From positions 1 through 64,000 of the forward strand of contig CALHGX010000023.1 of the NCBI GenBank assembly GCA_938031185.1: a DNA stretch of 64,000 nt, in the 5' to 3' direction. The DNA is from an uncultured bacterium (lineage in GTDB: Bacteria; Verrucomicrobiota; Kiritimatiellia; CAIKKV01; CALHGX01). Below, piece by piece: positions 35,294-41,037 of the stretch. The stretch's first letter is position 1; each line of letters opens with the position of its first letter. The notes beneath the pieces were generated by a model that did no database searches, was not told the DNA's origin, and saw nothing but the letters and a program-made list of their open reading frames with translations. The position numbers were made by a program, and so were the translations under genes.

Positions 35294-36298
35294 TCAACCG
35301 TTTGCCGTGCCGCCGTCGGGCGCTATGCCTTCGCGCCGCCACACGTCGAGCATCAGTTCATAGCGCTGGAGGCGCATGCCGGTGTAGATGCAGTTGCTCG
35401 TCGAAAAAATGTAGCCGCCGCCGGGCATGCCGTGGCGGAGCGCGTAGCGGGCGGAGGCGATGACCTCCTCGTCCGTGCCGGTGTCGAGCATTCCGCAGCT
35501 CACATTTCCCATCAGGCACACCTCGTTCCCATACTGGCGCTTGACCTCGGCGATATCCACGCCGCCCTGGGGGTCGAGGGAGTGGAGCACATGCGGGCGG
35601 GCCTGGATGAGCTGGTCGAGAATGGGCATGATGTTGCCGTCCGTGTGCTTGATCGTGTAGAAGCCCATATCGCGCAGGGCGCGAATGGTGGCGGCGAGGT
35701 AGGGCGTGACGAATTCCGAGAAGAGCGAAGGGCTGAGGAACGGACCGTTGTTGAAGCAGTAGTCCGAGCACATGCCGAAGCCGTCCACGCCGCCATGGCG
35801 GTGCACCATTTCCGCCACGCGCAGAGCGTCATCCACCGCGGCCTGGGCTTCCGCCTTGAGCTGCTCCGGCTCGTCGGCGATGCGCCACGAGAACTTCTCC
35901 ATGCTGTTTCCACCGGGAATCGCAAAGGTGGGGTCGAGATAGAGCATGAGGAAATAGCGATCGCCGGTCTTTTCCCGGATCAGGTCCACGAGCCGCAAGC
36001 CTTCTTCGGTGCTGGTGGGGGGCGCGGGATGGACGAAGATGGCGCTGTGTTCGAACCGCTCGGCGGTCGCGATGTAGATGTCCGCCATGTCGCGGCGGTG
36101 CAGTTCCCGCTCCTTTTCCTCCATCTGCTGCCATTGGTGGTAGGAGCGGTGATGGGGATGCACCTTGCCCAGCGCCTCCATGGTCAGGTAGAACACCAGC
36201 TCGAAGTGGGGCACGCGGCCCGGGATGGGGCGGTGTTCAATAGCGCGGATGATGGTTTCGCGAGGCGTGAGTTTTTCAGCGGACGCCATGGTGTTCAT
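35294..36298 (-). CDS. UroD/MtaA-superfamily protein coupled to the ATP-grasp operon
   Basis: 334 aa TIM-barrel of the uroporphyrinogen decarboxylase/corrinoid methyltransferase superfamily, starting at ATG 36298 with a 4 bp ATGA overlap with the ATP-grasp-GNAT gene. N-terminal TPRETIIRAIEHRPIPGRVP is the family opening. Where MtaA-type enzymes have H-x-C-G, this protein has KHTDGN, so one expected zinc thiolate is an Asp; a later Cys remains (TSNCIYTG). It lacks the HemE decarboxylase hallmarks, so a haem role is unlikely. Coupling suggests a function in the beta-lysine-like pathway, perhaps methyl transfer; substrate unknown. Confidence 0.75.
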   Translation of the reverse strand: MNTMASAEKLTPRETIIRAIEHRPIPGRVPHFELVFYLTMEALGKVHPHHRSYHQWQQMEEKERELHRRDMADIYIATAERFEHSAIFVHPAPPTSTEEGLRLVDLIREKTGDRYFLMLYLDPTFAIPGGNSMEKFSWRIADEPEQLKAEAQAAVDDALRVAEMVHRHGGVDGFGMCSDYCFNNGPFLSPSLFSEFVTPYLAATIRALRDMGFYTIKHTDGNIMPILDQLIQARPHVLHSLDPQGGVDIAEVKRQYGNEVCLMGNVSCGMLDTGTDEEVIASARYALRHGMPGGGYIFSTSNCIYTGMRLQRYELMLDVWRREGIAPDGGTANG

Positions 36299-37854
36299 AG
36301 CAGGGAAAGCTCCTCCGACAGGTCCTTGGCGCATACAATCTTATCGTCCCCGGGCGCGTAGAAATCGCGAAGTCGCGCCACGATTTCGTAGGCTGCGTCG
36401 CGGTAGAAACCGCGCGTGGATTGATATCGCGGCTGGCTCGAGGTTTCAATGATGGCCATGCGGCCGCCTTTGAGTCGGATCTGGCTTTCGGCGAATTCGA
36501 GCAAGGCCTTGCCGAGGCCACGGCGTTGGTGGGATGGCGCCACCACGATCCAGTAGATGTCGTAGCTGCCCAGCGTGCACGGGATGGGGCCGAAACAAAT
36601 CCATCCGACCGGTTGCGCCTGATCCTCCACGACGAAAGACTGATAGTGCCCGAGTTCGCCCTCTTGGGCAGCTTGTTCGAGGACCTCGGCGGCCACTTCG
36701 ACCTCGTCGTCCCGGAAAAAGCCGGTATGGCGGACGAGCGAAAGGACGGCGTCGAGGTCTCCGGCCCGCATCCGGCGAATGTTCGCCTCGCCCCGAGCCG
36801 TTTTCGGCTTGGCCGTCCGGCCGGATCCCGCCGCCGGTCGAGGCCGTCGGTGGTGGGCGTTTTCCACCAGGGCGGCCACGAAATCCTCGAATGGAATACC
36901 GGCGGCGTGAAGCGCCCCAACGAATCCGGTGTCCGGCGCAATGTCGGGATTGGGATTTACTTCCAAGATGAAAAGGCGGCCTTCCGAATCGGCCCGAAAA
37001 TCCACCCGGGCGTAGTCCTGGCAATCCAGCGTGCTCCAGGCGGCCAGCGCATGACGGCGGAGTTGTTCCGCCAGGGCCTGATCCAAGGGCGCTGGAACGA
37101 CCCGCCGGGTGTGCTGGTATTCGAAAGAGTCTGGAAGCCATTTGGCGGCGTAGTCTACGATGCGGGGGCGGTCGCGGCCGAAATCGTCGAACACCACTTC
37201 CGAGGGCGGCAAGATCTCCACCTCGCGTCCGCGCTGATACAGGGCGACGTTCAGTTCCCGTTCGCCGACAAAAGACTCGATGAGCGCCGGTTGACGAAAA
37301 TTGGCATGCACGCGCGCCACAGCCCGCCGAAGTTGTTCGAGATCTTCCGGCACAACGGACTGGGCGTCAATGCCCTCGCTGGCGTCGGTTTGAAGAGGCT
37401 TGACGATCCAGGGCGACGGGGGGAGCCGCCCCGTGTCCCACCCGTCGGACACGGGCGCCAGCACGCCCGGGGGCACCGGCAGCCCCGCTTCCCGCAGGAC
37501 CGCCTTGGCGCGCCACTTGTCGTTAGCCAGCGACTGGCAGGCGCTGGTGTTGCCGGTGCAGGATTTGCCGAAGGCCATGCAGATAGCAGGCACGTAGGCC
37601 GCGTCGGCGGGGCGATTCGGAAAGCTTTCGACCAGATTGAAGAGAATACGCTCGGGCGTGGCCGCCAACAGGGGCGGCAGTTCGCAGAGATCGGACAACG
37701 CGGCTACGCGGTGGGATGCGCCGAGCCGGTCGAGGGCCGCGGTCACCGCCTTGACCTCCTCCAGCACGCCCACCTCGCTCTCGATGCCGTGGCCCGAGGC
37801 GGCGGCGCGCGGCGCGTTGTGAATAATCAGGACCGGTGGAAGTTTTCCGTGCAT
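36295..37854 (-). CDS. ATP-grasp ligase (D-Ala-D-Ala ligase-like) fused to a GNAT acetyltransferase
   Basis: 519 aa two-domain protein. Residues about 1-345 form an ATP-grasp ligase (FNLVESFPNRPADAAYVPAI, PWIVKPLQTDASEGIDAQSV, ALIESFVGERELNVALY, DYARVDFRADSEGRLFILEVNPNPD), with the Mg/ATP-binding Glu and Asn of LEVNPNPD in place. An Ala/Pro linker leads to a GNAT domain at about 370-510 (IRRMRAGDLDAVLSL, WIVVAPSHQRRGLGKALLEFAE as the acetyl-CoA pyrophosphate loop). It starts where the preceding ATP-grasp gene stops (1 bp overlap). The fusion suggests sequential ligation and N-acetylation of one metabolite. Confidence 0.85.
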   Translation of the reverse strand: MHGKLPPVLIIHNAPRAAASGHGIESEVGVLEEVKAVTAALDRLGASHRVAALSDLCELPPLLAATPERILFNLVESFPNRPADAAYVPAICMAFGKSCTGNTSACQSLANDKWRAKAVLREAGLPVPPGVLAPVSDGWDTGRLPPSPWIVKPLQTDASEGIDAQSVVPEDLEQLRRAVARVHANFRQPALIESFVGERELNVALYQRGREVEILPPSEVVFDDFGRDRPRIVDYAAKWLPDSFEYQHTRRVVPAPLDQALAEQLRRHALAAWSTLDCQDYARVDFRADSEGRLFILEVNPNPDIAPDTGFVGALHAAGIPFEDFVAALVENAHHRRPRPAAGSGRTAKPKTARGEANIRRMRAGDLDAVLSLVRHTGFFRDDEVEVAAEVLEQAAQEGELGHYQSFVVEDQAQPVGWICFGPIPCTLGSYDIYWIVVAPSHQRRGLGKALLEFAESQIRLKGGRMAIIETSSQPRYQSTRGFYRDAAYEIVARLRDFYAPGDDKIVCAKDLSEELSLL

Positions 37855-38837
37855 CAGCGTACACGCGACAACGCGCCTTCAAGAATCGTGCGGATGAGGT
37901 CTGAATAGGTTACCCCCTCCTGCGCGGCGATCAGGGGCAGATCGGAATGGTCCGGGTGCAGGCCGGGCAGAGGATTGACCTCCATAAACGCCGGCAAACC
38001 GTGCCGGTCGAGCCGGATGTCGACCCGGCCGGCGTCGCGGCACTCCAGGACGCGATAGCTTTCCAGCGCGAGCCGTTCCACGGCGCCGATCAACTCGTCC
38101 CGGTGCGGCCGCACATAGCGAACCAGTTGCTCGCAATGCTCCTTGACGTGGTAGGAATAGATGTCCGTCTGGGCGTGTTCGAGGATTTCCACTTCCATCA
38201 CGCCGAGCACCCGCGCCGACGGCCCTTCACCGACCAGGCCGACGGTGAACTCACGGCCGGGCAGGTATTCCTCGATCAGGACCGGTTGCCGAAACCGGTC
38301 GATGAGCGCCCGGCAGGCGGGGACAAGATCCTCGGGCTGTTCCACTCGGGATGTGTGGTCAATGCCCTTGCCGGTGCCTTCGGCGAGGGGTTTGACGAAA
38401 AGCGGAAACTCCAGGCTGATATTGTTCAAGTGGGCCGGGTCTCGCGCCACATGGAATCGGGGCGTGTGCAGTCCTGCCGACTGCACGAGCCGTTTGGCAA
38501 CGGACTTGTCCAACGTGACGGCGCAGACCAAAGGGTCAGAGAAAGTATAGGCGATGCCGTACGCATCCAGGAGACAGGGCACTTGGGATTCGCGACCTCG
38601 GCCGGCCACGCCCTCCGCGATATTGAAGACGGCATCCCACCGGTCTCCTTTTACGAGCCGGGCGCAGAGGTTTTTCACGTGTCCGATCCGATCGGTTCGA
38701 CAGCCGAGGGTTCGAATGGTTTGTTCCAGCGCGTTGATTGTGGCGTCCGAATCGAATTCCGCGACGGCCTCGGGGGAGAAACCCATGGCGAGATACTCGC
38801 TTCGCAGGTCATAAGTCAGGCCGATCAACGCGTTCAT
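37854..38837 (-). CDS. D-Ala-D-Ala ligase-like ATP-grasp protein
   Basis: 327 aa carboxylate-amine ligase of the ATP-grasp superfamily: VFNIAEGVAGRGRESQVPCLLD, TLDKSVAKRLVQSAGLHTPRF, PLFVKPLAEGTGKGIDHTS, PVLIEEYLPGREFTVGL and FMEVNPLPGLHPDHSDLP. The N-terminal FNIAEG variant and its neighbours set it apart from the peptidoglycan Ddl, so it probably ligates another amino acid. It starts at ATG 38837 without an SD, next to a -35/-10 pair that would place transcription start at the ATG. It shares a start/stop base with the next gene. Confidence 0.85.
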   Translation of the reverse strand: MNALIGLTYDLRSEYLAMGFSPEAVAEFDSDATINALEQTIRTLGCRTDRIGHVKNLCARLVKGDRWDAVFNIAEGVAGRGRESQVPCLLDAYGIAYTFSDPLVCAVTLDKSVAKRLVQSAGLHTPRFHVARDPAHLNNISLEFPLFVKPLAEGTGKGIDHTSRVEQPEDLVPACRALIDRFRQPVLIEEYLPGREFTVGLVGEGPSARVLGVMEVEILEHAQTDIYSYHVKEHCEQLVRYVRPHRDELIGAVERLALESYRVLECRDAGRVDIRLDRHGLPAFMEVNPLPGLHPDHSDLPLIAAQEGVTYSDLIRTILEGALSRVR

Positions 38838-38846
38838 GGCCGGTTA

Positions 38847-38876
38847 TGAGACCACACGCATCCGCGCGTTGTCAAG
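38847..38876 (-). promoter_or_regulatory. Internal promoter, probably leaderless, for the ATP-grasp genes
   Basis: Minus-strand TTGACA (38876-38871, perfect -35), 18 nt spacer, TCTCAT (38852-38847, 4 of 6), then only 9 nt to the ATG at 38837. The expected start point coincides with the ATG, which lacks an SD. Confidence 0.5.
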
Positions 38877-38958
38877 GCGCGCGCCGGAGGGGACCGGTTT
38901 GGACGGTGTGTGGCATAGGGCGCAGCGCGGCGGATCGTTGCCGGACGGCCGGAGGCGA

Positions 38959-40296
38959 TTAGAATCCGGCGAATTCGGTTTGGCGCGGGTCTCCGGGAGA
39001 ATATTCGCGATGGCCATTTCGCTGGCGTACCGTTACGGCCGGGGCGATGGCCGAGAGGCGTCCCGAGGCGAGCCCCCACACGCCCGTCGCGGCCCTCTTT
39101 GGAAATGCGCGTCGGGCGGTTTCCGGGACGATCGGCTCGGGATAGTTCACCAACAAGCCCTCGTAGTTCCTCAATACCGTGTGCGTGGGACTGGACGAGA
39201 CGATGTAGTTCGGGAGCAGGGGAATCTTGCCGCCGCCGTGCGGCGCGTCCACGACGAACTGCGGGATGGCCAAGCCGCTCAGACGCCCGCGGAGGTACTC
39301 CATGATTTCGATGCCGCGGCTCAACGGGGTGCGGAAATGCTCGATGCCGCGGACGAGATCGCATTGGAAGAGGTAGTAGGGACGCACTCGCATGCGAACC
39401 AACGCGCGGCAGAGCTCTTCCATGATGAGGGGCGAATCGTTCACTCCGCGCAGGAGCACGGATTGGTTTCCGAGGGGGATGCCCGCGTCCGCCAGCCGCG
39501 TGCAGGCGGCGGCCGATTCGGCCGTCACTTCCTGTGGATGATTGAAATGGGTGTTGATCCAAAGGGGGTGATACTTGCGGAGCATGCGCGTGAGTTCTTC
39601 GGTGATGCGCTGGGGCAGGACCACCGGGGCGCGGGTGCCCAAGCGGATGATTTGCACGCTCGGCACGGCGCGCAGAGCCGCCAGGATGCGCTCCAGCAGA
39701 GAGGTGGACATGGTGAGCGGATCGCCGCCGGAAACCACCACGTCCGTGATTTCCGGGTGCGCGGCGAGGTATTGGGCGACCTCGCGCAAACGGGCCACGG
39801 AAAGAGAAGTCTCCCGGGTGCCGGCCACCCGCTTGCGGGTGCAATGGCGGCAATACATGGCGCACATGGTGGTGGAAATGAGCAGTGCGCGGTCCCGGTA
39901 GCGATGCACGAGGCCGGGCACGGGCATGTCCGCCTCCTCTTCCAGCGGATCGGGCGTGAGGAAGCTCGGATCGCAAAGTTCCTGCGCCTGCGGGACGCTC
40001 ATGCGGAAGATGGGGTCCTGATAGCCCGGGACGCGAATCAGCGAAGCATAGTAGGGCGTGATCGCCAGGGGATAGCGTTCCACCACTTTCTCGATCGCGC
40101 GATGACCCCGCAAGGGGGGAAACTGCTCCGTCAGTTGCGCAAAGGACCGGATGCGGTTTCTTATCTGCCAGCGCCAGTCATCCCAGCGGGCATTTGCGCG
40201 AACGGGCGCCGGCGGCGTCTCGCTCGTCAATGCGGATGGAAGCGGAGGTTCGTCGGCGGGGGACTGTATTGACGCGGCGGCTTCCTGGCGATCCAT
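38959..40296 (-). CDS. kamA: KamA-type lysine 2,3-aminomutase (radical SAM, PLP)
   Basis: 445 aa from ATG 40296 (SD AAAGGA). The radical-SAM cluster motif is C145-x3-C149-x2-C152 (MCAMYCRHCTRKR). The clostridial lysine 2,3-aminomutase aligns with a constant offset of 20 residues: Cys125/129/132 become 145/149/152, PLP-Lys337 becomes Lys357 (PHGGGKIP), and the two lysine-recognition aspartates Asp293 and Asp330 become Asp313 (QCDLVRG) and Asp350 (VVDAPHG). Retention of both acids favours L-lysine as substrate and beta-lysine as product, rather than glutamate. It is longer than the EF-P enzyme EpmB. A GNAT domain (the AblB reaction) is encoded two genes downstream. Confidence 0.9.
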   Translation of the reverse strand: MDRQEAAASIQSPADEPPLPSALTSETPPAPVRANARWDDWRWQIRNRIRSFAQLTEQFPPLRGHRAIEKVVERYPLAITPYYASLIRVPGYQDPIFRMSVPQAQELCDPSFLTPDPLEEEADMPVPGLVHRYRDRALLISTTMCAMYCRHCTRKRVAGTRETSLSVARLREVAQYLAAHPEITDVVVSGGDPLTMSTSLLERILAALRAVPSVQIIRLGTRAPVVLPQRITEELTRMLRKYHPLWINTHFNHPQEVTAESAAACTRLADAGIPLGNQSVLLRGVNDSPLIMEELCRALVRMRVRPYYLFQCDLVRGIEHFRTPLSRGIEIMEYLRGRLSGLAIPQFVVDAPHGGGKIPLLPNYIVSSSPTHTVLRNYEGLLVNYPEPIVPETARRAFPKRAATGVWGLASGRLSAIAPAVTVRQRNGHREYSPGDPRQTEFAGF

Positions 40297-40327
40297 GGAG
40301 GCATCCTTTCTGCGTGGTGAGGGGTTT

Positions 40328-40357
40328 GTTATATTCCTGCGGGAGTTTTTCAAGCAA
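40328..40357 (-). promoter_or_regulatory. Candidate kamA promoter
   Basis: Minus-strand TTGCTT (40357-40352), 18 nt spacer, TATAAC (40333-40328, 5 of 6), about 30 nt upstream of the kamA ATG and its SD. kamA can therefore be expressed separately from tetR. Confidence 0.5.
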
Positions 40358-40407: not shown

Positions 40408-41037
40408 CTATTCCAGCCAAGAGGCCACGCCATCAAGCAGCAGGCGGGGCACATCGTCCGCCAGCGCGGACAGCTCCTCCTTGTTCATCCCCAGCATGGC
40501 CAACCCCAGCATGCCCAGGGGCAGGCCGACGGCGGCGCACGCCAGACGGCGGAGATGGCCGGCATCCGCGTCGGCCTTGGCACGTTCGCTCAACATTTTT
40601 TCGATCGCGGCCAAGTGGGTGAGAAAGGGTTGTTCCATGGTGGGTGCCGTTCCACGGCGAAGGCGGCTCATCACCCGCGCCTGAAAGAGGATGGCCACCT
40701 CGTCGGGATGAGCGTGAAAGAAAGCGGCATGAGTCCGGGTGATGTGGTGGAAAGCGTCTCGGAGCGTGGCGGCCTCGGACCATCCAGGGCGCAGCGTTGC
40801 CTTCAACTGTTCGAATACCCCCTCGACCAAGGTTATCAGCAGCGCGTACTTGTCCTCAAAATGGCGGTAGAACGTCCCTTTGCCAATGTCTGCCCGTTCC
40901 GTAATATCCTCGATGGTGGCCGCATCCACTCCTACTTCGGCGAAAACGGCCAAGGCGGATTCCAAAAGCCTTCGCCGAGTATTTCCGGCTCTCCGGGCTG
41001 TACGCCCTTTTTGGGTATTTGCTGGCTGATCAATCAT
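40408..41037 (-). CDS. TetR/AcrR-family transcriptional regulator
   Basis: 209 aa with an N-terminal TetR HTH (RRRLLESALAVFAEVGVDAATIEDITERADIGKGTFYRHFEDKYAL) and a helical ligand-binding C-terminus without an assignable ligand. It is the gene upstream of kamA on the same strand, with its stop 50-80 bp before the kamA promoter. Repeated palindromes in the 320 bp upstream region overlap its promoter, which suggests autoregulation and possible control of the divergent MshEN gene. Whether it controls kamA is not shown by the sequence. Confidence 0.88.
   Translation of the reverse strand: MIDQPANTQKGRTARRAGNTRRRLLESALAVFAEVGVDAATIEDITERADIGKGTFYRHFEDKYALLITLVEGVFEQLKATLRPGWSEAATLRDAFHHITRTHAAFFHAHPDEVAILFQARVMSRLRRGTAPTMEQPFLTHLAAIEKMLSERAKADADAGHLRRLACAAVGLPLGMLGLAMLGMNKEELSALADDVPRLLLDGVASWLE

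Follow-up and report, generated by a model that had tools for sequence, protein, structure and literature searches.

We analyzed a 64,000-nucleotide stretch from an uncultured bacterium of the class Kiritimatiellia (assembly GCA_938031185.1, contig CALHGX010000023.1, positions 1 to 64,000; here called the window), which belongs to a host genome of 2.47 Mb, and focused on a minus-strand cluster in which a KamA-family aminomutase stands with two ATP-grasp ligases and an acetyltransferase domain. A gene for a TetR-family regulator of 209 amino acids (aa) (40408..41037; PF00440, 1e-14) lies directly upstream of kamA (38959..40296), which encodes a radical S-adenosylmethionine (SAM) aminomutase of 445 aa with matches to TIGR00238, TIGR03820, and PDB entry 2a5h. 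After a gap of 121 bp follows AG1 (37854..38837), a 327-aa ATP-grasp ligase with the fold of D-Ala-D-Ala ligase (Ddl) (Pfam Dala_Dala_lig_C, 3e-28; AlphaFold model). The next open reading frame (ORF; 36295..37854) joins a second ATP-grasp ligase, AG2 (residues 1 to 340, 36835..37854; Dala_Dala_lig_C, 9e-24; Ddl fold by Foldseek), to a GNAT domain (residues ~353 to 519, 36298..36798; PF00583, 4.6e-11; match to PDB entry 2r7h). The last gene encodes a 334-aa protein of the UroD/MtaA superfamily (35294..36298; Pfam URO-D, 7e-18), which we judged to lie outside the module. All these genes except the regulator had been described in the original prediction, and we recovered each of them. The reported overlaps of the last three were also read from the sequence: the AG1 stop codon (37856-37854) and the AG2 start (37854) share 1 base, and the AG2 stop codon (36297-36295) overlaps the UroD ATG (36298-36296) by 4 bp (ATGA). 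Position 40357, previously given as the end of the cluster, coincides with no gene boundary. The kamA ORF stays open up to 40404; the ATG at 40296 is the most plausible start, because the Shine-Dalgarno-like GAAAGGATG lies just upstream and because this start reproduces the 20-residue offset reported earlier, with D313, D350, and K357 corresponding to residues 293, 330, and 337 of lysine 2,3-aminomutase (LAM) plus 20.

The closest solved relative of the window KamA is the LAM of Clostridium subterminale (PDB 2a5h; E = 4e-135), with 52% identity over 390 residues. The protein passed the KamA family model TIGR00238 (304.1 bits; cutoff, 199.2), and its lysine-type active site is complete (CxxxCxxC, R134, D293, D330, and K337 in LAM numbering). 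In LAM, the side-chain ammonium of the substrate lysine binds to D293 and D330, and glutamate 2,3-aminomutase has other residues at these positions. When KamA proteins from related operons were aligned, D293, D330, and K337 were invariant (70 out of 70), and R134 and the SAM-cluster CxxxCxxC were kept in all 69 proteins with letters at those positions. Beta-lysine, the product proposed originally, is likely what KamA makes, because the lysine-specificity residues are conserved throughout the operon proteins. The window KamA was the sole KamA-family protein found in the host genome (89% complete), in which neither EpmB nor a second AblA was seen. Operon KamAs fell into three clades apart from AblA and LAM (FastTree, midpoint rooted). 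The AblA-clade KamAs of class relatives (L188 and L190) adjoin sodium/solute symporters, not ligases.

Family profiles and AlphaFold models place both ligases in the Ddl fold. The AG1 model had a mean predicted local distance difference test score (pLDDT) of 93.7 and a predicted template modeling (TM) score of 0.92, and all 50 PDB entries listed as its fold matches were Ddl or D-Ala-D-Lac ligases (query-normalized TM, 0.72 to 0.79). The model of the AG2-GNAT fusion had a pLDDT of 89.8, with a target-normalized TM of ~0.8 to the Ddl fold for AG2 and low confidence in the linker (residues 342 to 353; pLDDT < 50). We numbered ligase residues on E. coli DdlB in an alignment of 69 AG1 and 90 AG2 proteins. 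The ATP, Mg, and oxyanion residues (K97, K144, E180, E187, K215, R255, D257, E270, and N272) were present in 69/69 AG1 and at least 88/90 AG2 proteins, and since these residues are kept, both ligases should form acyl phosphates. The substrate-binding positions differ from those of Ddl. In place of Y216, most AG1 proteins have E (or W), and every AG2 protein has W. Ddl binds the carboxylate of its acceptor through G276 and S281; all 69 AG1 proteins retain both residues, whereas AG2 mostly has D/C and A/S at these positions, so that this acceptor site is lost. From this difference we infer that the AG1 acceptor carries a neighboring carboxylate and that the AG2 acceptor does not.

The resemblance to Ddl extends to the fold and to all ATP, Mg, and oxyanion residues in both ligases, but the donor and acceptor residues have changed and both proteins fall under every Ddl cutoff (TIGR01205 cutoff, 245.65 bits; AG1, 124.8; AG2, 94.8). 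The host genome has its own Ddl, which scores above the same cutoff (289.4 bits). We rejected Ddl as the identity of AG1 and AG2 on the basis of these scores, the altered Y216 position, and the separate Ddl. Two further groups of ligases were seen. A third Ddl-like ATP-grasp (L144:6090-7139; own genome, C18:14194-15084) carries K144Q and E180Q in Ddl numbering and overlaps an ORF upstream of it that has no Pfam match; comparably strong matches occur in many genomes of the class. An AG2-like ATP-grasp with 29 to 34% identity is present on rhizobial plasmids (e.g., pNGR234a; L163:5806-6816 and L164:4857-5867); no KamA is annotated near it in the two plasmid records examined, and we set it aside as belonging to a different context.

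The nearest solved structure of the GNAT domain is 2r7h (E = 3.3e-32; 8.6e-53 with the family profile), deposited as a "putative D-alanine N-acetyltransferase of GNAT family." The depositors probably chose this name from context, as a guess. Taken at face value, this title and the Ddl fold of both ligases would suggest a role in the cell wall, with AG1 and AG2 as accessory D-Ala-D-X ligases and the GNAT as a D-alanine acetyltransferase. We consider this the least credible of the explanations and rejected it: a separate Ddl exists in the genome, neither ligase keeps Y216 (see above), AG2 is without G276 and S281, and the module is tied to KamA and also found in archaea, which lack peptidoglycan.

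KamA and a GNAT are likewise the two enzymes of the characterized AblA/AblB pathway, which produces the osmolyte N-epsilon-acetyl-beta-lysine (PMC1224877). A pathway of this type in the window, ending in free N-acetyl-beta-lysine, would agree with the lysine-type KamA and the presence of a GNAT. The AblB model TIGR03827, however, did not match AG2-GNAT at E ≤ 0.001, while as a positive control it recognized the genuine AblB next to KamA in L191, from a class relative (349 bits), and we rejected AblB as the identity of the GNAT. The operon KamA clades are distinct from AblA, and the added ligases are inherited together almost perfectly (see below). An AblA/AblB-type pathway is thus improbable here, in agreement with the original claim that the cluster does not encode the simple osmolyte pathway.

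Next, we focused on the conservation of the gene set. A contig scan of genomes yielded 80 loci, in which genes were called and labeled by profiles and taxa were taken from record titles. Bacterial carriers of KamA-AG1-AG2(-GNAT) were found in Planctomycetota, Kiritimatiellae, Lentisphaerae, Alpha- and Deltaproteobacteria, Magnetococcales, Acidobacteriota, and Calditrichaeota, and archaeal carriers were found in Bathyarchaeota and Methanomethylophilaceae. Neighborhoods were counted in the 42 loci whose flanks reached 3.5 kb or more, taking a gene within 4 kb of AG2 as near. KamA was near AG2 in 36/42 loci, AG1 in 34/42, GNAT in 37/42, and all three in 31/42. Some of the apparently missing GNATs are a diverged GNAT adjoining KamA, in Bathyarchaeota. 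In 52 of the 62 operons with both ligases on the same strand, AG1 and AG2 are spaced by 20 nucleotides or less. In Methanomethylophilaceae (L089 and L090), KamA-AG1 and AG2-GNAT fusions compress the whole set into two genes. The Bathyarchaeota-type loci L082, L085, L086, and L091 have AG1, KamA, and the diverged GNAT on one strand and AG2 convergent on the other, and a gene fusing a major facilitator superfamily (MFS) transporter to a kinase (608 aa in L082) lies beyond AG2 in L082, L085, L086, and L087.

The association also holds at the genome level. Among 41 genomes selected by a match to AG2 or its GNAT (E ≤ 1e-30), all 41 had a KamA match (E ≤ 1e-60) and 39 had a strong AG1 match (E < 1e-85). 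The genes are split over contigs in five genomes (G054, G063, G300, G341, and G020) and still co-occur, which indicates a functional link on top of the positional one. In the class, 35 of 193 genomes had both AG1 and AG2 and 156 had neither, with one discordant genome in each direction (Fisher P = 3.6e-36, with relatedness ignored). KamA was more common (100/193), as expected from the other uses of its family. Mirror-tree correlations of 0.71 (KamA-AG1) and 0.90 (KamA-AG2) are consistent with co-inheritance, but the species history that the genes share confounds them. The arrangement of KamA, AG1, AG2, and GNAT is therefore not due to chance, since the four recur together in bacteria and archaea. 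The survey bears out that two distinct ligases and a GNAT accompany KamA across two domains of life. As to the expected co-occurrence of four genes, kamA, AG1, and AG2-GNAT recur and the UroD-like gene does not.

A UroD homologue was near AG2 in only one of the 42 loci, and none was found beside the operon in order-level relatives. The window protein scored below the cutoffs of the curated models for HemE, MtaA, and CmuA (TIGR01464, 19.4 bits against 303; TIGR01463, 41.6 against 235; NF040654, 29.9 against 400) and met only the Pfam superfamily URO-D. The host genome has 19 URO-D family matches in all, this one included, and UroD/MtaA-like proteins are thus markedly expanded for a genome of 2.47 Mb. 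A pathway of four genes with the UroD-like one included, as first proposed, could draw on the 4 bp (ATGA) that this gene shares with AG2-GNAT in the window. It is largely refuted by the neighborhood data and very unlikely; on these data and the 19 genomic matches we rejected the gene as a member of the module and treated its overlap as a local arrangement.

The upstream TetR gene, absent from the original prediction, fits better as the fifth member here. A homologue (84 to 146 bits) immediately precedes KamA in most order-level relatives whose upstream side was covered and in five planctomycete-type loci (L046, L048, L050, L067, and L083). Other lineages add a zinc deacetylase, which was out of sight of the original prediction and has no counterpart in the window operon. 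This protein of 580 to 770 aa consists of an N-terminal GNAT-like region and the deacetylase domain, often with the GNAT of the operon at its C terminus. GNAT-deacetylase(-GNAT) proteins occur within the KamA/AG operon in Alphaproteobacteria and some planctomycete-type genomes (GNAT-deacetylase loci L092, L095, L102-L105, L108-L111, L123, and L124; separate in L059, L061, L083, and L194), and 11/42 full-flank loci have one near AG2. The nearest family is that of the acetylpolyamine amidohydrolases (E = 5.5e-71), in the HDAC superfamily, and the zinc-site motifs RPPGHHA and EGGY are intact in 18/18 proteins. The operon enzyme differs from this family in its fusion to GNAT domains and its place inside an operon. 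Several Smithella-type loci have a pyridoxal phosphate-dependent decarboxylase a few genes downstream, and one that was tested scored just above the LysA cutoff. A LysA-type gene near the operon fits a demand for lysine, but its position may be due to chance.

Beta-lysine occurs in several antibiotics, and the deacetylase-GNAT protein gives a weak match to the streptothricin acetyltransferase model NF000487 (22.6 bits). The module could accordingly be imagined to make a secreted natural product (an antibiotic or siderophore) with the GNAT as a self-resistance enzyme like streptothricin acetyltransferase. This seems quite unlikely, given a module that is spread over many families of the class and archaea, often with a deacetylase, and recurrent neighbors that, as scanned, include no exporter, nonribosomal peptide synthetase, or polyketide synthase apart from the MFS-kinase fusion near four Bathyarchaeota loci.

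The gene set, its conservation, and its intact active sites were confirmed by observation. Together, TetR, kamA, AG1, and AG2-GNAT probably form a module for a small N-acetylated amide or short peptide that contains beta-lysine. The enzyme families point to beta-lysine synthesis, two ATP-dependent amide bonds, one acetylation, and an optional deacetylation. Judging from its residues, KamA would very likely convert L-lysine to beta-lysine. AG1 would then activate a carboxylate as an acyl phosphate and link it to the amine of a carboxylate-bearing acceptor, as the retained G276 and S281 suggest. By the same chemistry, AG2 would form the second amide bond with an acceptor lacking that carboxylate geometry, for example, the beta- or side-chain amine of beta-lysine or the AG1 product. 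The tethered GNAT would acetylate a free amine, and the acetylpolyamine-amidohydrolase-like enzyme, where present, may strip the acetyl group for turnover. The weakest step is the role; a protective solute or stress metabolite that stays inside the cell, comparable to N-acetylglutaminylglutamine amide (NAGGN), appears most likely by analogy. The partners of beta-lysine and the cellular role of the product are guesses. More specifically, and only tentatively, the module may represent an undescribed nonribosomal pathway common to bacteria and archaea. Its product would be an N-acetylated tripeptide or branched amide of beta-lysine, belonging to a new class of compatible solutes or stress metabolites; the two ligases would differ in acceptor specificity, and a zinc deacetylase devoted to the pathway would undo the acetylation in many lineages.

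The best analogues are NAGGN and the AblA/AblB osmolyte. In the NAGGN pathway, Ngg acetylates glutamine and ligates a second one to it; with AsnO, it is encoded in a compact operon with a regulator (PA3459-PA3461 in Pseudomonas aeruginosa) that is conserved across bacteria (PMC8070244). By this description of Ngg, one enzyme has ligase and acetyltransferase activities, and both domains are present in AG2-GNAT, with the activity predicted. A small intracellular peptide (here a predicted one), a compact operon with a regulator, and a wide distribution in bacteria are likenesses between the two. In contrast to the NAGGN pathway, the module has an aminomutase and two Ddl-fold ligases, its GNAT is C-terminal, the predicted substrate is beta-lysine instead of glutamine, and no AsnO-type asparagine synthase was found among the scanned or recurrent neighbors. 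With AblA/AblB, the module shares a KamA-type LAM followed by a GNAT acetyltransferase; it differs in a GNAT that is not AblB, two added ligases, and a distinct KamA clade.

Several observations weigh against a beta-lysine product with an osmotic role. The window KamA scores just below the cutoff of the AblA equivalog model TIGR03820 (495.3 bits; cutoff, 525.4), and the substrates of both ligases and the GNAT are inferred. Searches of the window stretch and of eight loci gave no Na+ or cyclic di-AMP riboswitch and no other Rfam match. Record titles, which are no test of osmotic function, place several hosts in freshwater lakes, and the TetR regulator suggests control by a ligand over control by salt. 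In three deltaproteobacterial loci (L068:6257-10940, L093:466-5150, and L100:752-5161), a pyruvoyl-dependent arginine decarboxylase stands with diverged AG1/AG2 and a GNAT, together with a methyltransferase and a second GNAT. No KamA was found on the analyzed stretches of these loci. The decarboxylase takes the place of KamA, so the two ligases do not in every case go with beta-lysine; the same pair possibly acts on agmatine there.

The main rival to the favored reading is therefore a polyamine-like cationic conjugate, with its charge set by acetylation and deacetylation, instead of an osmolyte. We kept it because no riboswitch was found, some hosts live in fresh water, and the deacetylase partner, nearest to acetylpolyamine amidohydrolases, leans toward polyamine-like substrates. 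Hosts not confined to saline sites (by record titles) and an agmatine-forming decarboxylase adjoining the ligases agree with this explanation. No gene for spermidine or putrescine synthesis, however, was found among the recurrent neighbors of the KamA-type operon, and the deacetylase need not mean polyamines, as beta-lysine is already a diamino acid. We regard the polyamine-like conjugate as rather unlikely but worth keeping in view. The best proposal for the product is still a beta-lysine amide or dipeptide, and the original interpretation is partly supported overall.

The enzyme families are known; as far as we found, their combination and the predicted product are new. No published description of a KamA/ATP-grasp/GNAT cluster was found in the open-license literature, which is weak evidence of absence. 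If the favored reading is true, the pathway has been overlooked because its ligases resemble D-Ala-D-Ala ligases and its GNAT resembles a generic acetyltransferase. It would add two amide-forming enzymes with new specificity and correct many gene names. Beta-amino-acid solute chemistry, too, would reach beyond a modified monomer (N-acetyl-beta-lysine) and include ligated products. Given its spread from Kiritimatiellae-type bacteria to Bathyarchaeota, the product would probably matter to many environmental microbes.

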